From positions 1 through 39,168 of the forward strand of contig CABMCA010000116.1 of the NCBI GenBank assembly GCA_902384525.1: 39,168 nt of DNA, in the 5' to 3' direction. Source of the DNA: an uncultured archaeon (GTDB lineage Archaea > Halobacteriota > Methanosarcinia > Methanosarcinales > Methanoperedenaceae). The notes beneath the pieces were generated by a model. It was not told the DNA's origin. It made no database searches and saw nothing but the letters and a program-made list of their open reading frames with translations. Made by a program: the position numbers and the translations under genes. This document shows, one piece after another, positions 17,176 through 37,353 of this stretch (within the stretch, counting starts at the first letter, position 1; each line of letters starts with the position of its first letter).

Positions 17176-17303
17176 AGTTTTTGTAATTTAGCACCACAAT
17201 TATTTATTTAAACATTTTCTTTTTAGTTTTTAGTAATATTGATATAAAAAACGATATGTTTAAATATTATGCATGAAAATATACTGGTGTACGGAGAAAA
17301 TCT

Positions 17304-17525
17304 GTACATAAGAATGGGTCGGTAAAGTTGGCAGGTTGGGGAGATAAAGCTCTAACATCGGATTTTACAACCCATGAAAAACGTGGGGTTCAGCTATTCT
17401 ACGAGAGCAACTGAACCCCCGGATCGCCCGAAGGCATGGTAAGATTAGCTTTGAACTTATTTAAAGCCAGCGCCGTGCCTGATGAGGGCAGCAAAGAAAA
17501 GAAAATATAAAGGAGAAATAAAAAT
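17304..17525 (+). ncRNA. structured leader RNA, copy 1 (5' UTR of secreted protein)
   Basis: The 222-nt sequence recurs at 22126-22350 with about 93% identity. Stems seen: AACCCATG (17369-17376) with CGTGGGGTT (17382-17390, one bulged G), and GGGGTTCAG (17385-17393) with CTGAACCCC (17411-17419). These two compete for 17385-17390, as in a switch. GGCATGG (17433-17439) pairs with CCGTGCC (17473-17479) around an inner GCTTT/AAAGC hairpin. The element ends with the SD AAAGGAG just before the ATG at 17526. TATA-like TTTAAATATT lies at about 17259-17268. It could be a riboswitch, an attenuator or a stabilising leader. Confidence 0.6.
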
Positions 17526-18191
17526 ATGAAAAATAAAGGAATGCAATTAGGCGCGGTGCTTGCGGCGATGTTGCTGCTGGGTATGGTGTCTATACCGGCC
17601 GTAAGCGCCCAATCTGATGAAAAACAAGTAAAGCAAATAGACCCTTATACCTACGTGGTTGATAAGAAGGTGCCAGATAAAAAGAAGTTTTTGGATAAAA
17701 TCGAACCAATTATTGACCGAGAACACAATGTTTCATCATCAACTGGACAAGTAACCTCTCAAGATTTTGATACAAGTAAAAGCAATACATATTCTCAAAA
17801 TGTATTAGGGTCTAGCATTGAAGGACGAACTTATGCACATGGGGTACAACAGAGTGGTTGGCAGGCCACATATACAGGTGATGGATATACAAAGGGATAC
17901 TGGTGGGGTTCTAATCCATATTATGCGGACAGGATCACTCTAGGGTCACAAGTAGTGGTTCATGGTATAAGCGTAACTGTTAGCGTTCCACCTAGTATAG
18001 GATTCTCAGTAAGCGGTGACACTGCTACATACTCTGGATCATGGGATAATGAGTGGGCGGCTATTCATTACTACAACAACTTAGTAGGAACATCAAATTG
18101 GGCTCTTACAGGTTCTGACCAGTACGATAGTGAAACCTTCAGGTTTGGAAATACAGACTATACATTGTATACCCATGTAGCTCTTCCGTAA
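17526..18191 (+). CDS. secreted protein of unknown function, 221 aa
   Basis: A Sec signal peptide (residues 1 to about 29, cut near VSAQSDEK) precedes a Lys-rich segment (about 30-60) and a Gly/Ser/Tyr/Trp-rich beta domain (GWQATYTGDGYTKGYWWGSN, VVHGISVTVSVPPSIGFSVS). There is no C-terminal membrane anchor or sorting motif, so it is probably released or bound at the surface non-covalently. It is preceded by the repeated leader RNA whose 3' end supplies its SD. No known family was recognised. The beta-rich, aromatic tail suggests adhesion or an extracellular matrix role, which is speculation. Confidence 0.75.
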   Translation: MKNKGMQLGAVLAAMLLLGMVSIPAVSAQSDEKQVKQIDPYTYVVDKKVPDKKKFLDKIEPIIDREHNVSSSTGQVTSQDFDTSKSNTYSQNVLGSSIEGRTYAHGVQQSGWQATYTGDGYTKGYWWGSNPYYADRITLGSQVVVHGISVTVSVPPSIGFSVSGDTATYSGSWDNEWAAIHYYNNLVGTSNWALTGSDQYDSETFRFGNTDYTLYTHVALP

Positions 18192-18357
18192 CCCTCGGAA
18201 TCTACTTCCCATATAGATGGGCACTGTTCCATTTTCCAGTGATTTTTAAGACCAGATTGACACGGGCTAATGCAGAATTTAAGGCAGTAGATGCGTAAAT
18301 TAGTGAAATCTGCGTCCAAGATAATTACCGGGATAACTGGATTTTAGGATTGTGCCA

Positions 18358-18392
18358 TATAGATGTCTATATATATTATATAGATGTCTATA
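18358..18392 (+). promoter_or_regulatory. two tandem TATAGATGTCTATA palindromes
   Basis: The 14-bp palindromic site TATAGATGTCTATA occurs at 18358-18371 and again at 18379-18392. The centres are 21 bp apart, two helical turns, which is typical of cooperative binding by a dimeric regulator on one face of DNA. A partial copy (ATATAGATGG) occurs at about 18209-18218. The pair sits 16 nt before the gene at 18409, with SD GGGTGAT in between. Confidence 0.55.
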
Positions 18393-18408
18393 TTTTTAGG
18401 GTGATATA

Positions 18409-20226
18409 ATGAAGCAAATAATAATTCTATCCATAGTTTTAATAATCGTGTTTGTGATTTTTGGTTCACAATTCATAGAGAAAAATAAGACCTTGGGATA
18501 TGATAAAAACATATACAGTAAAAGCTTAAAAATTATCGAGAAATCTGAAGTTCCATCAGGGGGATATGTAGGCATTCCATTGAGAGAACCTACACTTTAT
18601 TCTACATATTACTTTTTAGAAATTTCAAAAATACTTGGTGTTAAGTATGAAAATAAAGAAAAAACCTTAGAGTGGTTGCATGATATGGAGAGACAAAACT
18701 TCCAAACACCTTCAAACGATAATATATACATACGCGATATTTACTTCGGAGTTTTTAGTCTCAAAAATCTCGATGAGTCTCCAAATAATCCAACTGAATT
18801 AAAAGAACAAATTGATAAATTTCAGTTGTCAGATGGTTCATATTGTTACTCTCTTAGTAAGGATGGGCTGAACTGTCAAGAGAATACTTCACAAATTTTG
18901 GCGACTTCATATGCACTCTCTATCTTAGATTCAATAGGATATGTACCTGATAATGTTTCGAAAACTAAGAACTGGTTAATATCTCAGTGGATTGAAGATA
19001 ACACATTTCAAGACTATAAATCATATCCATCAATTGAAAAAATCATTAGTTGTTTAAAGATATTCGGAGTTAATATTTCGGAACTGCCAAAATATGATGT
19101 ACGGAAAGCTTGGTTAATTGACCAAAATAATATAATTGAGTCTAAATTATTAGGTGATTCAGTAGATCTTTTTACCTTAAATTCATATTATTATTTATCT
19201 AATGAATTTAATATAACAGATCAGAATTTCAAAAGTGAACTTTATAAGTATCTAATTAACAAGCAACTTTTAGACGGCGGATACAACGCAATAAATGGTA
19301 ATTACTCAGAATCTAAAGGTACTTTTCTTGCTTTAACTATTTTAAAGGATTTTAATCTTCCTAGTGTTGAGCATGATTCAATTATAGATTTTGTTAAATT
19401 CCATAGAGCGTCTTCAGGAGGATTTTATCCTGAGTATCAGTCAATACCAAATATAGAGGATACATACTATGCACTTTCAGAACTGGAGATTTTCAATGTT
19501 AAACCACATTATATAGAGAATCTTACAGATTTTATAAAATATCAAGCAGCTTTAATTAATCAAAGTAATAACAAAAATAAATTACAGAATTTATTTTATA
19601 TAAATGAGATATCTAAGATGGTAAGTAATTCTAATTTAGATAATGATATCATTAATTACAATTTAAATATGTTTTTTCTAAACCAGAATTATTCAAAACA
19701 ATCCGACTTGAAAGATATAGAGAGCCTTTATTACGCAGTTAAACTTAGTAAAAATTATTCGCATAAAATTAATAAAACTGAAATATATAGTTACATAATG
19801 GAAATACAAAATTCTGACGGTAGTTTTGGTATAGAAAATCTCTCTAGAACAGATACGACATTTTACGCAATAAGTATCTTAGATGATCTCGGTATTAACT
19901 TAACAAATAAAAAAGAGATAATAAGATGGGTAAAAGAAGGCCAAAATGTTAACGGAGGGTTCGAGTTTAGAAATGGAAATTTCACTTCAAACTCTTCTGA
20001 TTTATATTCAACATATTTAAGTATCACTACTCTAACATTGTTGGATGAAAATCCTCAAGAAATCAGAGGCTTATGCAATTGGATACGAGAATTAGAACAT
20101 CCTGATGGAGGATTTGTTCTTAGTTTAGATGATTCTCAGAAAAAAAGTCCAAAGATAAAATATACTTATTGGGCTTTTAAAACTTTAAACTCTTTAGGAG
20201 GAAACGATAAATGCACATATATATAA
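18409..20226 (+). CDS. membrane-anchored alpha/alpha-toroid (PFTB-repeat) protein, 605 aa
   Basis: A signal anchor (residues 1 to about 20) leads an extracellular domain built of repeats like GGYNAINGNYSESKGTFLAL, GGFYPEYQSIPNIEDTYYAL, GSFGIENLSRTDTTFYAI and GGFEFRNGNFTSNSSDLYST. This is the prenyltransferase/squalene-oxidase (PFTB) repeat pattern that folds as an alpha-toroid. Clear catalytic signatures (DCTAE/DxDD of cyclases, zinc ligands of protein prenyltransferases) were not seen, so a binding or structural role is likely. The DNA is much more AT-rich than neighbouring core genes, suggesting acquisition. It overlaps the lipoprotein gene by 16 nt. Confidence 0.75.
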   Translation: MKQIIILSIVLIIVFVIFGSQFIEKNKTLGYDKNIYSKSLKIIEKSEVPSGGYVGIPLREPTLYSTYYFLEISKILGVKYENKEKTLEWLHDMERQNFQTPSNDNIYIRDIYFGVFSLKNLDESPNNPTELKEQIDKFQLSDGSYCYSLSKDGLNCQENTSQILATSYALSILDSIGYVPDNVSKTKNWLISQWIEDNTFQDYKSYPSIEKIISCLKIFGVNISELPKYDVRKAWLIDQNNIIESKLLGDSVDLFTLNSYYYLSNEFNITDQNFKSELYKYLINKQLLDGGYNAINGNYSESKGTFLALTILKDFNLPSVEHDSIIDFVKFHRASSGGFYPEYQSIPNIEDTYYALSELEIFNVKPHYIENLTDFIKYQAALINQSNNKNKLQNLFYINEISKMVSNSNLDNDIINYNLNMFFLNQNYSKQSDLKDIESLYYAVKLSKNYSHKINKTEIYSYIMEIQNSDGSFGIENLSRTDTTFYAISILDDLGINLTNKKEIIRWVKEGQNVNGGFEFRNGNFTSNSSDLYSTYLSITTLTLLDENPQEIRGLCNWIRELEHPDGGFVLSLDDSQKKSPKIKYTYWAFKTLNSLGGNDKCTYI

Positions 20227-20600
20227 AGACATATACAATTGTAATTTTACTATTGATTTTAGCTATTGGATGTATTCAAAAACCTACATCAGTCCCTCTT
20301 AATCTGACTATTTCAGAATATACTATTGCAGTTGGCGATAAAATAGTCGTCGAAGGGATGATATGGAATATGGGACCAAAAGAAGCGTTTAATATTAGTA
20401 TCTCCTTGGAAACTAAGGAGAAAAAAATTTTGGATAATGTTTATTTGCAGAGAATAAAAGCAGGTGAATCAACAAAATTTTTCTTGAATTCAACCTACAG
20501 CGGATACTCAAAGAGCGATTTAAAGCTGATTCTAAAAGTTATATGGAACGAAGAAAATGGACGAAACGAATTGGAGTACTTATTGAATAAAAACGATTGA
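20211..20600 (+). CDS. small lipoprotein with beta-sandwich (CARDB-like) domain, 129 aa
   Basis: The N-terminus has a hydrophobic signal and a lipobox (LAIGC, Cys at about 22), so lipid anchoring outside the membrane is expected. The rest (about 35-120) reads as an Ig-like beta-sandwich: LTISEYTIAVGDKIVVEGMI, NMGPKEAFNISISLETKE and a closing LKLILKVIWN strand, as in CARDB-type adhesion modules. SD AGGAGG (20197-20202) lies inside the upstream gene and the frames overlap, so it is co-translated with the toroid protein. It is a possible partner of that protein at the surface. Confidence 0.68.
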   Translation: MHIYIKTYTIVILLLILAIGCIQKPTSVPLNLTISEYTIAVGDKIVVEGMIWNMGPKEAFNISISLETKEKKILDNVYLQRIKAGESTKFFLNSTYSGYSKSDLKLILKVIWNEENGRNELEYLLNKND

Positions 20601-20754
20601 ATCAGAATAATTCCTGATAGTATAAAAACAACCAATATAGGAATTATAAATATTTGCATTGAAAATATTATGTTTTATATAAATATTGTTAGAATAGAAT
20701 ATTCGAAAATTATTGGTAATGGAATCGTAAAATCAAATATTAGGATGTGATAAA

Positions 20755-20976
20755 TTGATAAGCATAAGTGGAATAAGTTTGGGTCTCTTTATTCCTATTT
20801 TAGTTTTAGTGATAGTTTTTTGGCTCTGGATGCTGATAGATTGTCTAAAGAGGTCAGATGGGAAGTTCAAAATCGGAGGAAATAATGCCAAACTCATCTG
20901 GGTTATAGTTATAATTTTTACAGGGTTTATCGGGGCACTGATTTATTATATATTCATTAAAAGAAAAAATCATTAG
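20755..20976 (+). CDS. PLDc_N-like small membrane protein, 73 aa
   Basis: It starts at TTG 20755 behind SD GGATGTGAT. Two hydrophobic helices flank a short basic loop (FWLWMLIDCLKRSDGKF; WVIVIIFTGFIGALIYYIFI), a pattern typical of PLDc_N small membrane proteins found alone or before membrane enzymes. It ends with TAG and lies 11 nt before the subtilisin gene, with that gene's SD AGGAGG in the gap. It may help membrane insertion or act as a co-factor of its neighbours; the role is unknown. Confidence 0.65.
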   Translation: MISISGISLGLFIPILVLVIVFWLWMLIDCLKRSDGKFKIGGNNAKLIWVIVIIFTGFIGALIYYIFIKRKNH

Positions 20977-20987
20977 GAGGAAATTAA

Positions 20988-22097
20988 ATGAAAACAAGAG
21001 CAATACTCATTGCATCCATCCTCGTGGCATCACTGATACCAGCGATAGATGCAAAGCCCGTAATAATCGGATTCAATGAAACAATCGATCAAAACATAAT
21101 TAAACAGCACGGCATTACCAATTATACCCAATATAATATAATTAATGCTATTTTAGCCGATATTCCAGAAAGTGTATCTAAACAGTTAAAGAAAAACCCG
21201 ACAATAAAGTTCGTAGAAGAAGATGCACAGGTTCAGATAGCAGGAAAGCCAACTCAGCCTCCGCAACCCCCGCAGCAGATCACCTGGGGCATTGCAAGAG
21301 TAAAAGCACCAGAAACATGGAACAACACCACAGGATCAAATGTAAAGATTGCTGTGCTGGATACCGGCATAAGCAGTACTCATCCAGATTTGACAGTATC
21401 AGGAGGCATCAATCTTGCTGGAAAATCAAAAAATAACAAATGGAATGATGATAACGGTCATGGGACCCATGTCGCAGGAATCATAGCAGCCAGAAACAAC
21501 AGCATCGGCGTAGTTGGCGTTGCCCCAGATGCAGAGCTTTACGCTGTCAAGGTGCTTGATGCCTATGGAAACGGCTATATCTCAGATGTTATCGAGGGAA
21601 TTGACTGGGCAGTTCAGAACAATATGGATATAGTTTCCATGAGCCTTGGAACTGCGACTTATTCCCAGGCGCTCAATGATACTACTGCCAATGCTTATAA
21701 TGCTGGTATTCTTCTTGTTGCAGCCTCAGGTAACAGCGGAGATGGAAACCTCAGTACAAATGATGTCCATTATCCTGCAAAATTCGATTCTGTGATTGCG
21801 GTTTCTGCTATTGATTATAATAACATTGCGCCAGTTTGGAGCGCAGACGATGCCAAAATAGAACTGGCAGCGCCGGGTGTGAATATTTATTCCACATGGC
21901 TAAATGGCGGTTATGCGAATGCAAGCGGCACATCGATGGCGGCGCCGTTTGTGAGTGGTGTTGCAGCTTTGGTCAAAGGCAAGAATTTATCCATGACTCC
22001 ACAGGAAATTCGTGAGGCATTGGATTATAATGCGGTTGATCTGGGAGATGCTGGCAGGGATAGGATATATGGGTTTGGATTGGTGCAGGCAGATTGA
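20988..22097 (+). CDS. secreted subtilisin-family serine protease (S8)
   Basis: Signal peptide (1 to about 22), an I9-type inhibitor propeptide (about 25-85, ending KFVEEDAQVQI), a Pro/Gln linker, and then the S8 catalytic domain. The triad is complete: Asp125 in AVLDTGIS, His158 in GHGTHVAG and Ser316 in GTSMAAP, with oxyanion Asn249 in AASGNSG. At 369 aa it is a minimal subtilisin without C-terminal domains. It is likely an extracellular protease activated by autoprocessing. It belongs to the island bounded by the two leader-RNA copies; copy 2 starts 29 nt after its stop. Confidence 0.95.
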   Translation: MKTRAILIASILVASLIPAIDAKPVIIGFNETIDQNIIKQHGITNYTQYNIINAILADIPESVSKQLKKNPTIKFVEEDAQVQIAGKPTQPPQPPQQITWGIARVKAPETWNNTTGSNVKIAVLDTGISSTHPDLTVSGGINLAGKSKNNKWNDDNGHGTHVAGIIAARNNSIGVVGVAPDAELYAVKVLDAYGNGYISDVIEGIDWAVQNNMDIVSMSLGTATYSQALNDTTANAYNAGILLVAASGNSGDGNLSTNDVHYPAKFDSVIAVSAIDYNNIAPVWSADDAKIELAAPGVNIYSTWLNGGYANASGTSMAAPFVSGVAALVKGKNLSMTPQEIREALDYNAVDLGDAGRDRIYGFGLVQAD

Positions 22098-22125
22098 GAT
22101 ATACGAATCCAGAAGAACAAATCAT

Positions 22126-22350
22126 GTACATAAGAATGGGTCGGTAAAGTTGGCAGGTTGGGGAGATAAAAACTCTAATAACTGGATTTTATAGCCCATG
22201 AAAAAACGTGGGGTTCAGCCGTTCTGCGAGAGCAACTGAATCCCCGGATCGCCCGAAGGCATGGTAAGATTAGCTTTGAACTTATTTAAAGCCAGCGCCG
22301 CGCCTGATGAGGGTAGCAAAGAAAAGAAAATATAATGGAGAAATAAAAAT
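22126..22350 (+). ncRNA. structured leader RNA, copy 2 (orphaned)
   Basis: This 225-nt copy matches 17304-17525 with about 15 changes. Several keep pairing: C to T in the CTGAATCCCC arm turns G-C into G-U, and AACCC to AGCCC turns A-U into G-U. The small UA-UUC-UA loop stem becomes CG-UUC-UG. The SD-like TGGAG survives but the ATG position reads TAGAATGG, and only four codons follow before TAG. So no gene is attached: it is either a relic or a stand-alone 3' RNA of the protease transcript. It has no obvious TATA box of its own. Confidence 0.6.
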
Positions 22351-22370
22351 AGAATGGATTGGGTATAGGG

Positions 22371-22479
22371 GGTTCTGTCAAGTTGTCGGTTGTTACTATT
22401 ATAATATTAAGTAAATCATAGATAGTTGCCATCCTTAAAGTAGCGATTTCCTTCTAACAACCGAAGACTTGACAGAACC
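22371..22479. mobile_element. 109-bp MITE-like element with long terminal inverted repeats
   Basis: GGTTCTGTCAAGT (22371-22383) is mirrored by ACTTGACAGAACC (22467-22479), and TCGGTTGTTA (22386-22395) by TAACAACCGA (22455-22464), giving arms of about 25 bp with one 2-nt mismatch. No coding capacity. The ends resemble IS6-type tips (GGTTCTGT start). Flanks TATAGGGG and CATAGCGG are only 6/8 alike, so a target duplication is possible but not proven. It lies right behind leader copy 2. 22480-22674 shows no supported gene. Confidence 0.7.
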
Positions 22480-37263: not shown

Positions 37264-37353
37264 CGGGCGCGGAGGGATTCGAACCCCCGACCTACAGCTA
37301 GCTCCAATATTATTTAGGAGGCTGCCGCCCTATCCAGACTAGGCCACGCGCCC
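37264..37353 (-). tRNA. tRNA-Arg(CCU) with 15-nt bulge-helix-bulge intron
   Basis: The minus strand folds as a cloverleaf: acceptor GGGCGCG/CGCGCCC, D stem GCCT/GGGC, anticodon stem GCAGC/GCTGT, T arm GGGGG-TTCGAAT-CCCTC, discriminator G; no CCA is encoded. The anticodon CCT is at 37316-37318. The intron at 37300-37314 (AATAATATTGGAGCT) sits after base 37. Its GGAG pairs with CTCC of the anticodon loop between two 3-nt bulges (TAA and CTA), the BHB cut site of EndA. The mature RNA is 75 nt. A TATA-like TATATTAAATA lies about 35-45 nt upstream on the minus strand. Confidence 0.92.

Follow-up and report, generated by a model that had tools for sequence, protein, structure and literature searches.

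A repeated element in a Methanoperedens contig belongs to a predicted order-wide family of archaeal leader RNAs upstream of secretory genes

The contig CABMCA010000116.1 (assembly GCA_902384525.1) of an uncultured member of the Methanoperedenaceae was analyzed over 39,168 nucleotides (nt), and this whole stretch of DNA is referred to as the window. It contains two copies of a noncoding leader element, copy 1 at 17303–17525 and copy 2 at 22125–22351. According to our analyses, for which all evidence was computed from sequence, this repeat is best explained as the Methanoperedens member of a widespread, uncatalogued archaeal 5′-leader RNA, which would control the translation of secreted proteins via alternative pairing. 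We assign this reading a probability of about 0.75. Copy 1 looks functional, and the features predicted at its locus are:

17259–17269, + strand: TATA-like box TTTAAATATTA of copy 1 (read from the sequence)
17303–17525, + strand: leader copy 1, complete (alignment, fold and model match)
17314–17375, + strand: P0, an extra 5′ hairpin of Methanoperedens leaders (fold of copy 1)
17382–17421, + strand: P1, hairpin GUGGGGUUCAG...GAGAGCAA.CUGAACCCC (covarying, 120 aligned copies)
17426–17440, + strand: 5′ strand of P2, GCCC-GA-AGGCAUGGU (AGGCA near-invariant in 120 copies)
17448–17467, + strand: P3, apical hairpin GCUUU...AAAGC (changes on both sides at 6 of 7 pairs)
17472–17489, + strand: 3′ strand of P2, GCCGUGCCU-GAUGA-GGGC (fold; GAUGA form in 14 of the 54 copies listed for Methanoperedens)
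17512–17515, + strand: Shine-Dalgarno (SD) sequence GGAG of copy 1 (sequence)
17526–18191, + strand: gene of a secreted protein of 221 amino acids with the signal peptide MKNKGMQLGAVLAAMLLLGMVSIPAVSA (open reading frame (ORF) and Pfam scan)

As stated in the initial annotation of the stretch, which had been made from the letters alone, the two copies are about 93% identical, foldable and noncoding. Both folded better than dinucleotide-shuffled sequences (z = −5.35 and −2.79), and their similarity extends from ~35 nt past the TATA-like box of copy 1 up to its start codon. A genome-wide search (2.9 Mb) recovered these two copies only. The transcript of copy 1 is predicted to start near 17290–17300; in Methanoperedens, TATA-like boxes are concentrated at −100 to −140 relative to the core of the element, and in other genera at −20 to −60. 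Copy 1 ends, as had also been noted, in the SD sequence of a secreted protein: a purine-rich linker with GGAG is followed by the ATG of the 221-amino-acid protein, for which a Pfam search gave no match. This GGAG is unpaired with a probability of 0.987 if the fold takes in just the 25 nt from the start codon onward.

A DNA search of 60 relatives gave matches in 20 genomes, after which 40 regions were fetched, and an iterated profile search resulted in some 58 copies. A covariance model (R1) was then refined to a second one (R2), built on 120 aligned copies. With R1, 65 matches were found in 20 of the 34 genomes of the family, all of the genus Candidatus Methanoperedens, and at the level of the order, 89 of 186 genomes had matches, one family having as many as ten copies in a genome. 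R2 extended the range to six further families of the phylum, with matches in 27 more genomes. The closest relatives carrying the element include records named Methanoperedens BLZ2 and M. nitroreducens. These numbers refer to a sampled set of genomes in which many copies are related by duplication, and E-values from the short calibration are rough. Outside the order, matches were weak (36–53 bits). However, 24 of 28 loci inspected there precede an ORF with a signal peptide, and as this independent feature had not been used in model building, we argue that these matches are real. Two more loci of this inspection were excluded from the count because they belong to a genome inside the order (G148; 5,751,492 bp), which has 12 matches, most of the inspected ones again preceding signal-peptide ORFs. 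The initial annotation had not recognized the motif as a known RNA class, and consistent with this, no match above the gathering threshold was obtained in Rfam 15 on the sense strand of the window and of several dozen homologous loci. Weak Rfam matches near the element (twister-P3, porB) were judged to be chance. No description of the family was found in the open-access literature on Methanosarcina, Methanoperedens or archaeal riboswitches, and a description elsewhere is possible.

The position of the element relative to genes is fixed, with a median of 31 nt from its end to the start codon. A signal peptide, scored by a crude rule, was found at the start of 102 of 110 downstream ORFs, compared with 8 of 46 and 7 of 43 background ORFs, so that the proposed association of the leader with secreted proteins extends far beyond the window. 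The mature parts of 105 downstream proteins fell into 57 unrelated clusters. Most downstream proteins had no Pfam match, and those that could be named were mostly extracellular peptidases (M12B reprolysin-like, matrixin, C39-like and subtilase), the others being beta-helix, Ig-like or DUF proteins. The element thus has a fixed 5′-leader position before a defined set of genes, as expected for a structured cis-regulatory leader. Tandem arrays of secreted-protein genes, each with its own leader copy and up to five in ~11 kb, were seen in Methanoperedens and Methanosarcina-type genomes (L078, L060, L174–L179, L186).

The core fold consists of the hairpin P1, the long-range stem P2 (AGGCA/UGCCU) and the apical hairpin P3. 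P1 pairs GUGGGGUUCAG with CUGAACCCC, has a further stem inside it and carries the conserved loop ...AAGAGCAA..., and P2 is usually lengthened by CCC/GGG past an internal loop of the GA/GA, GA/GAUGA or A.C type. A P0-like hairpin was predicted by folding in 25 of the 54 listed copies. In the alignment of 120 copies, standard pairs made up 89.6% of the pair cells, and changes on both sides occurred at 23 of 28 pairs, which bears out at family level the pair-preserving differences first noticed between the two window copies. Cells with double changes numbered 247, compared with 77 ± 11 in column shuffles and ≤54 in slid controls. Since this alignment had been fitted to the structure, we applied a second test that ranked 4669 column pairs by corrected mutual information after dereplication at 85%. 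Ten of the top 28 column pairs were pairs of the structure (0.2 expected). The AGGCA/UGCCU stem is nearly invariant and, because it hardly varies, is neither supported nor contradicted by covariation. RNAalifold had recovered only three pairs from the first MAFFT alignment because two 3′ subtypes were misaligned, and this was remedied by trimming at GCCU and refinement with covariance models. Compensatory base changes thus support one fold, as expected of a structured cis-regulatory leader RNA. Judged by sequence comparison, this uncatalogued leader RNA of secretory genes is genuine and spread across the order.

In most members, the bases past UGCCU of P2 continue as an anti-SD sequence. Pairing energies of anti-SD and SD were more favorable for cognate than for non-cognate combinations, both in 62 copies (−9.48 vs. 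−7.69 kcal/mol; 0 of 5000 permutations) and in 69 dereplicated copies (−9.86 vs. −8.51 ± 0.19 kcal/mol; 0 of 10,000 permutations). Matched variants extended beyond the SD core (CCUUUUG/CAAAAGG, CUCCUAG/CUAGGAG, CUCCUG/CAGGAG and CCUCUUG/CAAGAGG), and the corresponding helix in G148 is ACUCCUAAGGG/CUUUUAGGAGU. Because both helices need UGCCU, formation of P2 precludes occlusion of the SD and vice versa. In constrained folds of the order-wide set, the two states were a median of 3.6 kcal/mol apart, and the SD was 31% paired in one state and 95% in the other. The family as a whole (main subtype) hence has the SD-masking alternative pairing of translational riboswitches, and it is very likely, as far as predicted helices can tell, that most members would act as a translational switch. 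The initial annotation had anticipated the principle of mutually exclusive stems, but not the stems involved: our data point to the 3′ strand of P2, which would alternate between AGGCA and the SD or, in the window subtype, perhaps signal-peptide codons. For segment 17385–17390, the proposed alternative stem AACCCATG × GGGGTT was rejected: it had a pairing probability of <0.0001 at a cost of +15.4 kcal/mol, and its upstream arm lies within the poorly conserved 5′ domain.

Comparison of the copies thus shows P1, P2 and P3 as a conserved fold just 5′ of the start codon in signal-peptide genes, and covariation shows that in most members the 3′ strand of P2 (UGCCU and the next few bases) can pair either with AGGCA, which leaves the SD free, or with the SD, which is then hidden. 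In the SD-paired state, the freed 5′ strand of P2 could form a local hairpin, GCC-CRNA-GGC. The state with P2 formed would be ON and the SD-paired state OFF, although these labels are provisional, and a ligand, a protein, an antisense RNA or a physical condition acting at P1/P2 may shift the balance.

If the trigger were a metabolite, which would be a special case of this mechanism, the apical loop of P1 and the AGGCA/UGCCU junction would serve as ligand pocket and the anti-SD:SD helix as expression platform. The conserved core with a switching platform beside the SD would fit such a riboswitch, and the fact that a single leader serves over 50 secreted genes unrelated to each other suggests one shared signal. 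However, no Rfam riboswitch class matches, the downstream genes have a common destination and not a common pathway, and the invariance of AGGCA/UGCCU is equally explained by its double pairing duty. We thus consider a metabolite-binding riboswitch possible, at odds well short of even. Occlusion of the SD by a weak stem is also thermometer-like, and a 5′-terminal hairpin can protect an mRNA, as would suit an RNA thermometer or structural stability element whose stems melt with temperature or set mRNA lifetime and which needs no dedicated signal. Such an element is unlikely, as the strict sequence conservation of P2/P3 and the covarying two-state design exceed the needs of a thermometer.

Copy 1, which is intact, and the orphan copy 2 belong to a derived subtype of Methanoperedens leaders. 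In both copies, GCCU-GAUGA-GGGC together with GCCC-GA-AGGC (17426–17435) has the exact layout of a kink-turn (canonical (C) stem, 3-nt bulge, tandem G.A, non-canonical (NC) stem). Sequestration of the SD was tried for this subtype and rejected, since cognate pairing equaled non-cognate pairing and no helix of 7 or more was found. A fold that included 35 nt of coding sequence gave a 15-bp pairing between the following segments of copy 1:

17469–17483, + strand: switch strand, 15 nt complementary to 17546–17560 (fold with 35 nt of coding sequence)
17546–17560, + strand: signal-peptide codons AUUAGGCGCGGUGCU, with which 17469–17483 may pair alternatively (fold)

Across copies of the subtype, this codon pairing had a mean of −27.1 kcal/mol compared with −20.8 kcal/mol for synonymous recodings (p ≤ 0.05 in 14 of 25 copies), whereas the other subtype had little excess in the same recoding test. 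Codons of the AGGCGCG type were found in 20 of 29 copies of the window subtype and in 0 of 17 copies of the other Methanoperedens subtype (Fisher’s exact test; p = 1.9e-6, uncorrected for descent). When the fold of copy 1 took in the signal-peptide codons, its codon-paired state was favored (−76.0 vs. −69.2 kcal/mol). These data are suggestive of an alternative pairing of the P2 3′ strand with signal-peptide codons in the window subtype (GCCU-GA or GAUGA-GGGC), which might loop out the SD together with the AUG.

Several observations weigh against translational control by alternative pairing. The copies in the window are devoid of the SD-sequestering arm (the anti-SD bases), and in most copies of the family the predicted P2 is more stable than the SD pairing, so that OFF may be a minor state in the absence of a partner. 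Cognate codon pairing was not clearly above non-cognate pairing within the window subtype (373 of 5000 permutations), which is why we regard it as suggestive only, and it could be co-inherited through gene duplication, as the copies are not independent. Moreover, about one third of the Methanoperedens genomes had no match, and the leader is therefore not essential there.

The kink-turn also raises the possibility that the leader is bound by a protein or an RNA, such as L7Ae at the kink-turn, a secretion factor or an antisense RNA like the small RNA (sRNA) sRNA162, and is not switched by a small molecule. Archaeal L7Ae regulates its own 5′ leader (PMC5539422, PMC6298567), and the layout in the window copies is exact. 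The kink-turn form is restricted to 14 of the 54 listed Methanoperedens copies, the window pair included, however, and the rest of the family has other internal loops (GA/GA or A.C) in its place. As for RNA partners, sRNA162 (RF02792) is antisense to a leader member at three Methanosarcina-type loci (L258, 3406–3640; L184, 1690–1924; L199, 3050–3283), where it overlaps the leader core by 53–54 nt on the opposite strand. In M. mazei, the first 65 nt of sRNA162 overlap the MM2442 5′ leader and bind it in vitro, and the transcript start of this leader has been mapped (PMC3510493); by coordinates, it lies ~11 nt before the core. The MM2442 leader is hence an experimentally seen member of the family, as a single antisense target. 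The strong match of sRNA162 is limited to its own cis leader (−114 kcal/mol vs. ~−30 kcal/mol for other leaders), and apart from this target, pairing in trans with leaders of the same genome had no clear excess over shuffled leaders. We treat a protein- or RNA-bound leader as a tentative alternative. That the sense strand of the element might itself be an sRNA162-type RNA was rejected, as sRNA162 is on the opposite strand and overlaps at the three loci only. The member at these loci probably starts with UUG. For MM2442-type genes, the start may in fact be a UUG upstream of the annotated one, preceded by an SD and beginning a signal peptide; this is clear in L199, and the frame is broken in L258.

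Copy 2 follows directly on one of the secreted-protein genes of the island:

20988–22097, + strand: secreted subtilase gene (Peptidase_S8) upstream of copy 2 (ORF, Pfam)
22125–22351, + strand: leader copy 2, orphan, 28 nt past the subtilase stop codon

The purine-rich GGAG end has been kept in copy 2, but AATATGAAA has become AATAGAATGG and the start codon is gone, in agreement with the initial annotation, which had described an SD-like end without its ORF. No long ORF was found downstream of copy 2, nor was a TATA-like box at the expected place. We conclude that copy 2 is a duplicate whose gene was lost. A 109-bp element resembling a miniature inverted-repeat transposable element (MITE), with 25-bp terminal inverted repeats GGTTCTGTCAAGTTGTCGGTTGTTA, is located at 22371–22479 and begins 20 bp past copy 2; other copies in the genome are 99%, 88% and 82% identical. 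Its insertion may have caused the gene loss behind copy 2.

This neighbor and the two near-identical copies in one island could suggest that the leader itself is a mobile element, a MITE or a MITE relic situated upstream of genes by chance, and the initial annotation had called it mobile. This part of the annotation was not supported. The leader has no terminal inverted repeats, as a MITE or insertion sequence would, only two copies exist in the genome, the core is old, occurring throughout the order and outside it, structure and position relative to start codons are conserved order-wide, and viral contigs contained no exact pattern match. A mobile origin is thus highly improbable. Of the grounds for doubt raised at the outset, homologs do covary, and the element is neither an insertion sequence nor a coding relic. 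The leader appears to have spread by duplication together with the 5′ end of its gene. PYLIS_5, the pyrrolysine insertion element of a transposase, adjoins leader arrays (L177, 3382–3481; L174, 14577–14676), and transposons may drive the amplification of leader-gene islands.

Also located between the two leaders are the gene of a 605-amino-acid protein (18409–20226), whose repeats are of the alpha-alpha toroid (Prenyltrans) type and whose N-terminus has a hydrophobic segment, and, overlapping the end of this gene, a small lipoprotein-like ORF (20211–20600). Like the subtilase gene, both are without a leader of their own. Elsewhere in the window, Rfam indicated a 90-nt tRNA at 37264–37353 on the minus strand (54 bits), which was absent from the ARAGORN output and possibly contains an intron or a long variable arm.

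The predicted leader would govern the surface and extracellular output (peptidases and surface-type proteins) of methanogens and anaerobic methanotrophs. It predicts specific compensatory-mutation tests and is a means of listing the coordinated secretome of uncultured Methanoperedens. A more far-reaching and doubtful idea is that methanogenic and methanotrophic Halobacteriota possess an RNA-level secretome regulon, in which one leader class would respond to a common signal, perhaps the state of secretion or a second messenger, and switch the translation of dozens of exported proteins that are unrelated to each other. In Methanoperedens, the pairing partner would then have moved from the SD into signal-peptide codons, coupling signal-peptide translation to leader folding.

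To our knowledge, very few classes of cis-regulatory RNAs are known in archaea. In bacteria, cyclic di-GMP (c-di-GMP) riboswitches precede adhesin and surface-protein genes. The leader resembles them as one RNA class over a surface and secreted regulon, but it is archaeal and has no Rfam match. With translational riboswitches that have SD-sequestering platforms, it shares the 5′-leader position, a conserved folded core and an SD-masking exclusive pairing; unlike these, it belongs to no Rfam class, is archaeal and serves dozens of unrelated secretory genes and not one pathway. The autoregulatory L7Ae leaders of archaea (PMC5539422, PMC6298567) likewise carry a kink-turn layout close to the start codon, which both window copies match exactly, whereas here the kink-turn is not family-wide, the genes are secretory instead of coding for L7Ae, and the remaining fold is unrelated. 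Finally, the MM2442-type leader at the three sRNA162 loci belongs to the family described here. RF02792, in contrast, describes the antisense sRNA, which is present at three of the scanned loci, and the published work on MM2442 (PMC3510493) took the leader as a single case, with no ribosome-binding site before the annotated start. The family also gives the sRNA162/MM2442 pair a wider setting.

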